This document shows positions 1 to 1,742 of a DNA stretch of 20,530 nt, piece after piece. The stretch spans positions 1 through 20,530 of IMG/VR virus record IMGVR_UViG_3300042884_000100; one strand, 5' to 3'. Below the pieces are notes generated by a model. The model saw nothing but the letters and a program-made list of their open reading frames with translations. It made no database searches and was not told the DNA's origin. Made by a program: the position numbers and the translations under genes. How positions within the stretch are numbered: the stretch's first letter is position 1; the number at the start of each line of letters is the position of its first letter. This DNA comes from a virus.

Positions 1-384
1 GACAACTTTATCAAACTGGGTGTAATTATCCTTGCCTGTTAATTGAATATATCCTCGACCTCTAAATTTCCAACCATCGCCACTTGCTTCGTCTCCGTTA
101 CCCATTCTTGAACTATAAACTCTATTTGCTATCTTCTCAGGTTTTCTTTCATAAGCATTTGCAATAGCATCATCTTTAAAGTATTTTCCAAAAATAGACC
201 TAAGTCCTTTAGCACCATAATTAAGATTTTCAGTAACCGCTTTGAAGTTACCGCTTTCGTGAGCACATTGTGATAAAAAATGCGCTAATCTTAAATTGCT
301 ATTCAAGGCAAACTTTTCATTAATTTGAGGTATTTGGTCTAATACGTTTGCAGGTATCTTTGTCGATAATGCTTCTAAATTCAT
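1..384 (-). CDS. GH19-type endolysin, N-terminal part (cut by window edge)
   Basis: This is a cell-wall lytic enzyme of the glycoside hydrolase 19 (chitinase-like) fold, which phages use to cleave the glycan strands of peptidoglycan at the end of infection. The visible 128 residues carry the family signature. His42-Glu43-Ser44 lies in an AHESGNF motif, with Glu43 the expected general acid. Glu52 follows in TENLNYG and is a candidate second catalytic residue. RGRGYIQLTGKDNY at residues 108-121 is the substrate-groove motif. No signal peptide is visible, so release probably depends on the upstream holin candidate. The ATG at 384 is separated by one base from the stop of the preceding gene. The C-terminus lies beyond position 1. 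The family call is from motifs I recognise and is firm; the exact bond cleaved is inferred. Confidence 0.93.
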   Translation of the reverse strand, partial: MNLEALSTKIPANVLDQIPQINEKFALNSNLRLAHFLSQCAHESGNFKAVTENLNYGAKGLRSIFGKYFKDDAIANAYERKPEKIANRVYSSRMGNGDEASGDGWKFRGRGYIQLTGKDNYTQFDKVV

Positions 385-385
385 T

Positions 386-826
386 TTATTTTATTTGTGA
401 GTATAAAAATAATGTTAGCATAGCAAATAGAACTGAGTTAAGCCTATGAAGTTTTAATTCAAAGTTCATATCCTTTTCGTACTGCTCGTAGATTGCTATA
501 TTTTTATAGTACCTATTACGATAGTCGTTTAACGTATCGTTCGATATTTTATTGCGTATTGTAAGGGTATCTTTAAGGGTAAGTAAGTCAATGCGAAGGC
601 TATCCCTTGTCTTGATGTTAGCTTTAATTAAGCTATCTATTCTGTTGTTCTGGTAGCTTACTAAATTAGTTAGGCTATCAAATGAGTTGTTAATCTTCTC
701 GCCTTCTGACCGGCTAATAACAATCTTGTCCTCGCCACCTATCTTCTTAACGTATTGGGCGAAGCATAAACTTGGTGCTATTAGTATCGACAGAATTAGC
801 AGAATCCAATTTAGCCTTAACTTCAT
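386..826 (-). CDS. Exported protein with C-terminal membrane anchor, lysis cassette
   Basis: This 146-residue protein is of unknown family. Residues 1-23 look like a Sec signal peptide (charged MKLR start, hydrophobic core, possible signal peptidase I site after FA at 22-23). Residues about 35-120 are polar, with regularly spaced hydrophobics suggesting a coiled coil. Residues about 127-143 form a hydrophobic C-terminal segment. The chain would therefore be periplasmic with a membrane anchor at its C-terminus. It lies between the o-spanin-like lipoprotein gene, which it overlaps by 80 bases, and the endolysin, so a role in envelope disruption is inferred from position and topology. I see no lipobox: the cysteine at 21 is preceded by PSL. 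It could be a third spanin component or an unrelated envelope protein. Confidence 0.7.
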   Translation of the reverse strand: MKLRLNWILLILSILIAPSLCFAQYVKKIGGEDKIVISRSEGEKINNSFDSLTNLVSYQNNRIDSLIKANIKTRDSLRIDLLTLKDTLTIRNKISNDTLNDYRNRYYKNIAIYEQYEKDMNFELKLHRLNSVLFAMLTLFLYSQIK

Positions 827-1037
827 TTAGTTCTGTTTTTAATTCTTTTACTTCTTGCTTTAAGGTAACTATCGTTTTTACTGTCTTCGTAATTACCTTC
901 TTGTTATCCTGAGAAGCCACACCCTGCACCGCTTTACTCTGCACTTGGCTTTCTTTTACTTTGTCTTGCAACTCTTTAATCTGGTTATCGGCTTTAGTTC
1001 CGCAACCTAACAAAGCAACCAATAATAAATAGCGCAT
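747..1037 (-). CDS. Small lipoprotein, o-spanin-like (Rz1 analogue candidate)
   Basis: This 96-residue protein has a lipoprotein-type signal: MRYLLLVALLGC, with the lipidated cysteine expected at residue 12. The mature part is short, Lys/Glu-rich and probably coiled coil at about residues 20-80. That suits an outer-membrane lipoprotein that pairs with an inner-membrane partner. Its start overlaps the stop of the preceding single-span membrane protein (TAATG, one shared base), and its last 80 bases overlap the next gene in another frame. This close, overlapping arrangement of a membrane protein and a lipoprotein recalls Rz/Rz1 pairs. The spanin role is inference. The lipobox has Leu at -2, which is tolerated but not ideal. 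Confidence 0.72.
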   Translation of the reverse strand: MRYLLLVALLGCGTKADNQIKELQDKVKESQVQSKAVQGVASQDNKKVITKTVKTIVTLKQEVKELKTELNEVKAKLDSANSVDTNSTKFMLRPIR

Positions 1038-1309
1038 TACTTAAACTTTTTAAGAGCCTTAAGGTCTACTGCCATTTCTAAACGAGCCGTACTTGCTGCG
1101 TTACTGCTATCACTTTTACGCACCATTTCATACAAGCTACCTATCTTTTCGTCTTGCTTTTCGTTACGCTTTGCATTGTCGATGTAGAGGTAACTAATAC
1201 CGCAGATACATAAAAACAACATACCTACGACAGGGTTCTTGCTAAACTCTTTGAATGAAATTGGTAACGGGTTTGTCGATACGTTTACGCTTCTTGCTGC
1301 TTTTGCCAT
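1037..1309 (-). CDS. Single-span membrane protein, i-spanin-like (Rz analogue candidate)
   Basis: This 90-residue protein has a positively charged N-terminal tail, one transmembrane segment at about residues 27-43 (VVGMLFLCICGISYLYI), and then a polar, probably helical or coiled-coil tail rich in Lys, Glu and Ala. The predicted topology is N-in with the tail in the periplasm, as in inner-membrane spanin subunits. It is directly followed, with a one-base overlap, by a lipoprotein gene, and preceded by a u-spanin candidate whose stop lies one base upstream. Context and topology suggest an i-spanin. Sequence identity to any known Rz was not tested, and a pinholin or other small membrane protein remains possible. 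Confidence 0.65.
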   Translation of the reverse strand: MAKAARSVNVSTNPLPISFKEFSKNPVVGMLFLCICGISYLYIDNAKRNEKQDEKIGSLYEMVRKSDSSNAASTARLEMAVDLKALKKFK

Positions 1310-1310
1310 A

Positions 1311-1742
1311 TTATTTACGTTTCCAAAAGAATAAGATTAGCGTAATTATTAATATAAGCGCGATTAAAGCCTTATAAAATTCGCTGAAGGACTTATCCTT
1401 AGTTTTAATTATCTTCGAAATTTGGGTACTTTCTGTGCGATTTAGAGCCATTGAGTCCGTCTTGGTATGCTTACTATCCGTTTGTTTCTCTTTTGTACCT
1501 CTTGTGTAGGTTTCCGTGTACTTAGGAATAGTTATCATACTATCCTTAGTAACCCACAAAGTATCGTAGTAAGTAATGGTCTTGGTAAAATACTCTTCCT
1601 TTTCTACTATTTTAGTTACGCTATCTAAAACGACTACACGCACCGAGTCAAAAGTTTTGACAACTGTGCTATCTAATTTCTCCGATGCCTTCTTTACTGA
1701 GGCGCAAGAAGTAAGCAATAAGGCTAAAAGTATTAATCTCAT
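1311..1742 (-). CDS. Unimolecular spanin (u-spanin) candidate: lipoprotein with C-terminal TM
   Basis: This 143-residue protein combines two features that together define u-spanins such as T1 gp11. The first is an N-terminal lipoprotein signal, with a near-perfect lipobox LTSC and Cys13. The second is a C-terminal transmembrane segment at about residues 124-140, closed by WKRK, which would face the cytoplasm. The linker between them is rich in Thr, Val, Lys and Asp with alternating hydrophobics, consistent with beta structure. Such a protein would be lipid-anchored in the outer membrane and embedded in the inner membrane, and would fuse the two during lysis. The ATG overlaps the stop of the upstream holin candidate (ATGA). 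Topology is read from sequence; the family role is known for u-spanins; the assignment here is inferred. Confidence 0.75.
   Translation of the reverse strand: MRLILLALLLTSCASVKKASEKLDSTVVKTFDSVRVVVLDSVTKIVEKEEYFTKTITYYDTLWVTKDSMITIPKYTETYTRGTKEKQTDSKHTKTDSMALNRTESTQISKIIKTKDKSFSEFYKALIALILIITLILFFWKRK

Follow-up and report, generated by a model that had tools for sequence, protein, structure and literature searches.

Candidate unimolecular and two-component spanins encoded side by side in a viral lysis cassette with exchangeable parts

The window, i.e., the whole stretch of viral DNA analyzed here (an IMG/VR virus record of 20,530 bases), carries a lysis cassette that probably, though with some reservation, contains two self-standing and exchangeable spanin systems. 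One would be U, a lipoprotein with a C-terminal transmembrane (TM) segment, and the other the protein pair I-O extended by a third protein, X. More tentatively, I-O-X may be a three-component spanin made up of a type I rod (X), a type II i-spanin, and an o-spanin, deployed along with the u-spanin as the second of two exchangeable systems.

As to localization, complex formation, and membrane fusion, we infer the following. U would have its acylated N terminus in the outer membrane and its C-terminal TM segment in the inner membrane, with a beta-rich linker across the periplasm, and would pull the membranes together once the GH19 endolysin has removed the peptidoglycan. I-O-X would act as a second system consisting of the i-spanin I, the o-spanin O, and a third, type I subunit X. 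The latter may serve as a long helix, anchored in the inner membrane and tipped with a beta-hairpin, that probably docks to the C terminus of O, which is conserved.

RESULTS

Gene content of the cassette

The minus-strand gene order is DUF7936 protein, 128-aa protein, hol56, U, I, O, X, and GH19 endolysin (Table 1). All four open reading frames that the initial annotation had claimed between positions 386 and 1742 were found there, upstream of the endolysin gene; its list of envelope-spanning candidates stands, but as a list of the cassette it was incomplete, having overlooked hol56. The last 4 bases of hol56 are also the first 4 of U, and I and O have one base in common (TAATG). Signal peptides, lipoboxes, and TM segments were called by sequence rules and hydropathy (rule-based, not SignalP or TMHMM). 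The protein encoded by hol56 matches PHROG 33315 weakly, and a distant homologue gave a weak match to the holin family phrog_1350 (E = 9e-4). In the loci read, hol56 is a constant member of the cassette, and in relatives a two-TM gene, hol72, comes after the endolysin gene. U, I, O, and X are all under purifying selection, with dN/dS values of 0.07, 0.05, 0.17, and 0.14, respectively (65 to 72 distinct coding sequences from the window's clade).

Table 1. Features of the lysis cassette and its surroundings in the window
Feature	Position	Strand	Properties
DUF7936 protein	2255-2647	minus	
128-aa protein	1909-2295	minus	
hol56	1739-1909	minus	56-aa membrane protein, one or two TM segments; holin-like candidate
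U	1311-1742	minus	Lipoprotein (lipobox LTSC, Cys13), periplasmic part predicted beta-rich at low confidence, C-terminal TM segment 124-140; u-spanin candidate
I	1037-1309	minus	Type II single-TM protein, conserved motif SFKEF.KNP...LF..YLYID; i-spanin candidate
O	747-1037	minus	Lipoprotein (lipobox LLGC, Cys12), amphipathic helix, conserved C terminus F.LRPI; o-spanin candidate
X	386-826	minus	Signal peptide, beta-hairpin 24-37, long helix 39-144 into C-terminal TM segment; type I inner-membrane protein
O end/X start overlap	747-826	minus	80 nt; O frame constrained
GH19-type endolysin	1-384	minus	Truncated by contig end; phrog_181 endolysin, E = 3.7e-48

U has the layout of a unimolecular spanin

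Sequence and hydropathy place a periplasmic stretch of ~105 residues between the lipobox and the C-terminal TM segment of U, which is followed by a KRK tail. The analysis revealed that the lipobox Cys is kept in 72 of 72 clade sequences (LTSC), SC being invariant also in divergent members, and that the C-terminal TM segment is present in all 254 family members, with periplasmic Cys absent from all 251 U sequences. These data bear out the u-spanin layout attributed to U in the initial annotation. The AlphaFold2 model (pLDDT about 50) contains four strands and a confident C-terminal helix. The combination of a lipobox and a single C-terminal TM segment is rare: outside the U family and the V151 family described below, it was found in only 1 of 8,253 open reading frames in 431 loci, namely, an X variant with an extra Cys. 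In the loci read, U sits in lysis cassettes. By layout it fits the definition of a unimolecular spanin, and most likely it is a sufficient u-spanin; a comparison with known u-spanin families found no sequence similarity.

I and O resemble a two-component spanin, with X as a linked third gene

I has a basic, cytoplasmic N terminus, a single TM segment at about residues 27 to 43, and a C-terminal periplasmic part of 46 residues, a type II layout that is conserved in 18 divergent sequences. One I homologue matched an Rz-like spanin family weakly (E = 3e-4), and I did not match any Pfam or PHROGs holin family. O combines its lipobox with a strongly amphipathic central stretch; it is a lipoprotein in every lineage, and its lipobox Cys occupies one of only eight invariant columns among 28 divergent sequences. 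The adjacency of the two genes is near universal, with a spacing of -1 or 0 in 333 of 370 loci. The pairing of I and O as i- and o-spanin candidates thus holds up at the level of layout, and together they fit that of a two-component spanin. Against a second spanin system count the absence of periplasmic Cys from the window's I, O, and X and the short periplasmic part of I, which shows no heptad signal: the heptad test was significant only for O, with I and X scoring no better than shuffled sequences. In other lineages, periplasmic Cys does occur, in 72 of 385 homologues of I.

The signal peptide of X ends in CFA, before an invariant Gln, and its C-terminal TM segment gives the protein a type I topology (N-out, C-in) rather than type II, which lies outside current spanin criteria. 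The AlphaFold2 model (pLDDT 87) shows a beta-hairpin and then a helix running into the membrane, single long helices being easily over-predicted; Foldseek found no counterpart of this model. The overlap of O and X, which measures 80 nt in 270 loci and has other lengths but the same relative frame elsewhere, is kept, in line with a two-system reading. Within it, constraint is evident in the O frame (pN 0.016, pS 0.150) but not in the X frame (pN 0.050, pS 0.032), so the C terminus of O matters in its own right. X is absent from 14 loci of one lineage in which I-O is retained. In exactly these 14 loci O has a different, extended C terminus, and the standard ending is found in 352 of 352 loci with X. 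The loss of X and the change in O were probably a single evolutionary event, but the match fits a docking of X to the C terminus of O. X had been counted in the initial annotation as a fourth separate candidate and possible third spanin. This did not survive: X is always linked to O and belongs to the I-O block, and with its type I topology it is ruled out as an independent third spanin.

Relatives exchange one module and keep the other

Scans of IMG/VR yielded 431 loci, two other searches added one further locus each, and 437 relatives of I were found. The constant genes in the window's clade are those for the 128-aa protein, hol56, U, an endolysin (GH24 or GH19), and the two-TM protein hol72. 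The space between U and the endolysin is a variable slot. It holds I-O-X in most of the clade, and alternatively H111-M210-B144, a protein with a PAS domain and two TM segments (PAS+2TM), or the single-TM protein C135; it is empty in the related lineage L307-L309. Minimal cassettes consist of hol56-U-hol72-GH24. On a tree of hol56 and U, the slot changed at least 6 times, a count that recombination could inflate; well-supported branches force 4 of these changes, and different slot modules accompany U genes that are nearly identical. U therefore persists when I-O-X is lost. This persistence of U where I-O-X is replaced or absent, and that of I-O-X where U is absent, speak for two systems. A 70-kb phage (L207/G026) and the window share I, O, and X at 84 to 91% identity and U at only 56%, so the histories of the two modules are separate.

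Relatives differ in the type of endolysin at this cassette position, which is GH19 in some, as in the window (1-384), and GH24 in others, such as L007 (8060-8506), with at least 3 changes on the hol56 and U tree. Several loci, including L007 (7359-8069), encode a 236-aa protein that we read as a GIY-YIG-type homing nuclease; its gene lies within the lysis cassette or close by, either between X and the endolysin or at another place.

The alternative slot contents bear on the main rival reading, in which U is the only spanin and I-O-X an envelope-sensing lysis-timing or holin/antiholin module, with I as a single-TM holin or antiholin and O and X as envelope-side regulators. Close relatives fill the same slot with the PAS+2TM protein or with H111-M210-B144, in which H111 matches holin families (Phage_holin_3_3, E = 1.7e-4; phrog_6384, E = 5.5e-8). 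A slot that also accepts a holin-homologue module suits a timing role and tells against two spanin systems, and the lack of periplasmic Cys in the window's I, O, and X points the same way. Against it stand two other small membrane proteins, hol56 and hol72, which as holin candidates are more constant, and the status of O as a lipoprotein in every lineage. Together with the lipoprotein census below, this makes the timing reading unlikely.

The slot modules have features of their own. H111-M210-B144 (L077:1353-2748, with relatives in L060 and L311) comprises the holin homologue, a two-TM periplasmic protein that matches a four-helix sensory module weakly (M210), and a secreted beta-rich protein (B144) that looks like a small outer-membrane barrel and could be an outer-membrane component of lysis. 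The PAS+2TM protein (L064:3882-4622, L048:989-1732, and L306:5342-6109) combines a PAS sensor domain with a coiled coil and two TM segments at the C terminus, and is possibly a signal-gated holin or antiholin. In L370 (3196-4955), the neighbor of I-O is a divergent cluster on the opposite strand that encodes a two-TM protein, a 194-aa two-TM protein, and a 110-aa holin-like protein; this cluster resembles H111-M210, and slot modules may therefore not be strictly exclusive.

Other loci have I-O-X but no U. The largest of the other groups has N178 at the position of U (L142:878-1411, L285:3726-4331, and others). N178 has no lipobox; it has an N-terminal TM segment, beta repeats with the motif DT(L/I), and C-terminal strands that look barrel-like. 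No homology was detected when U or X was compared with N178 by profile. N178 could span both membranes without a lipid and would then be a possible new kind of spanin. Another group carries V151, a lipoprotein with a C-terminal TM segment, beside an M15 or VanY-type endolysin and accompanied by I-O-X or I-O. Searches with the U family did not recover V151; since a sequence-unrelated protein of this layout also lies beside I-O, the double spanin-type set recurs, which again favors two systems.

In the loci read, U, V151, and N178 never co-occur. This mutual replacement raises the question of whether the spanin is I-O-X, with U, V151, and N178 being other envelope proteins, for example, ones for exclusion or envelope stress, that ride in the lysis cassette. 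As N178 has no lipobox, the shared role of the proteins in this place may be other than that of a u-spanin, and the structure model of U is poor. We nevertheless consider this improbable, because the layout of U is that of a complete u-spanin, V151 has the same layout with an unrelated sequence, and minimal cassettes exist in which U is the only lipobox gene found, located between hol56 and hol72 or the endolysin.

Each system can apparently stand alone

To take a census of lipoproteins, long contigs were scanned in six frames for lipobox genes, using looser rules because stricter ones missed known U and O genes. Both U and O were present in the window, in G025 (33.7 kb), and in G026 (69.6 kb), and V151 and O in G027 (64 kb); G025 contained one further, antisense lipobox match, apparently spurious. 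U was the sole lipobox gene in G001 and G005 (28 kb each), G009 (11.6 kb), and G010 (14 kb), whereas it was O in G022 (52 kb) and G020 (58 kb). When the U-only records were searched with profiles of O and I, nothing was recovered, and the positive controls worked for both. Phages with U only, with I-O-X only, and with both thus all appear to exist, as far as contigs that may be incomplete can tell, and the census is our strongest evidence that each system can stand alone. It also weighs against a timing role, as the two O-only contigs would have no recognizable spanin without I-O-X. The suggestion in the initial annotation that the envelope of a Bacteroidetes host accounts for carrying both is contradicted by close relatives with U alone and other phages with I-O-X alone; an envelope requirement for both was accordingly rejected.

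Host and database searches

The proposed Bacteroidetes host itself is likely: a homologous cassette is present in an uncultured Bacteroidetes metagenome-assembled genome (MAG), and endolysin relatives occur in many phages, including those of Flavobacterium, Olleya, and Cellulophaga. Among 395 genomes of the phylum of this MAG, I was found only in the starting phage-like contig and U in none. When all cassette proteins were searched against Pfam and PHROGs, none of U, I, O, and X matched a spanin family above the noise level; that curated spanin families give weak matches only, and that the contigs are incomplete, counts against the two-system reading. In tblastn searches of 50,697 phage records, U, O, X, and V151 had no match, I matched only one uncultured huge phage, and N178 had one weak match. 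The window's 317-aa protein, taken to be the major capsid protein by position and size, had no match among sequenced phages, and PDB sequence and Foldseek searches returned nothing meaningful. An uncultured huge phage (L141, LR745206.1, 634,780 bases) encodes an I homologue at a distance of about 32 kb from a GH19 gene. In place of O, the gene that follows codes for a 198-aa coiled-coil protein that has an N-terminal TM segment.

A last reading, favored by the lack of annotated family membership, is that the four proteins are unrelated to lysis. We consider this very improbable: the cassettes of the relatives read adjoin endolysins of the GH19, GH24, M15, or VanY type and small membrane proteins, and the sampled bacterial genomes of the phylum hold no homologue outside the one phage-like contig. 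The initial annotation had regarded loss of the lipobox or TM segment, or homologues outside lysis cassettes, as contrary to its proposal; in the relatives read, lipobox and TM segment were kept and the homologues lay within lysis cassettes.

DISCUSSION

In a survey of 677 phages that assigned one class per phage, 528 had a two-component spanin, 58 a unimolecular spanin, and 91 none (Kongari et al. 2018, PMC6139136), so that carrying both types would be unusual, as the initial annotation had held. The literature searched, which included few subscription papers, contained no report of both types in one cassette. Phage B40-8, which we take to be a Bacteroides phage, is a case for comparison. It has a two-component candidate whose genes are about 1 kb apart (Kongari et al. 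2018, PMC6139136). According to a 2025 survey, Bacteroidetes phages exclusively use unimolecular spanins (PMC12596118); here, hundreds of viral contigs of Bacteroidota type contain a two-component-type pair, which is often accompanied by a gene of the u-spanin type. Phages that have only U, only I-O-X, or both form a natural comparison set in which redundancy, division of labor, and the spanin requirement of Bacteroidota can be tested.

U resembles unimolecular spanins of the T1 gp11 type (Kongari et al. 2018, PMC6139136) in its N-terminal lipobox, C-terminal TM segment, lysis-cassette position, and lack of periplasmic Cys (found in 0 of 58 u-spanins in that survey); a beta-rich periplasmic part, suggested by a low-confidence model, may be a further similarity. 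It differs in adjoining a second system of the two-component type. Flavobacterial phages with annotated u-spanins are Ingeline and Nekkels, in the latter near a GH19 endolysin (Bartlau et al. 2021, PMC8776804); unlike in the window's cassette, only u-spanins were reported there.

I and O share with lambda Rz/Rz1, T4 PseT.3/PseT.2, and P2 LysB/LysC a type II inner-membrane protein, a lipoprotein with an amphipathic helix as predicted outer-membrane partner, and neighboring genes in lysis cassettes, and their summed periplasmic length of about 130 residues lies within the 62 to 300 reported for two-component systems (PMC6139136). Their genes are not embedded one in the other but abut by 1 bp. 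Periplasmic Cys, absent from the window's pair, is present in 507 of 528 known two-component systems (PMC6139136); as the other 21 also lack it, it is typical rather than strictly defining. Further differences from known two-component systems are the co-occurrence with U and a third gene, X, which in nearly all lineages overlaps the gene for the o-spanin candidate.

A type I (N-out, C-in) i-spanin has been proposed, and not yet found, in a discussion of spanin-less phages (Kongari et al. 2018, PMC6139136). X resembles this proposal in its signal peptide, periplasmic helix, C-terminal TM segment, and a gene that overlaps a lipoprotein gene, and differs from it in that X is always accompanied by the type II protein I and can itself be lost. 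If our reading is true, X is a candidate for the type I spanin subunit proposed by Kongari et al.
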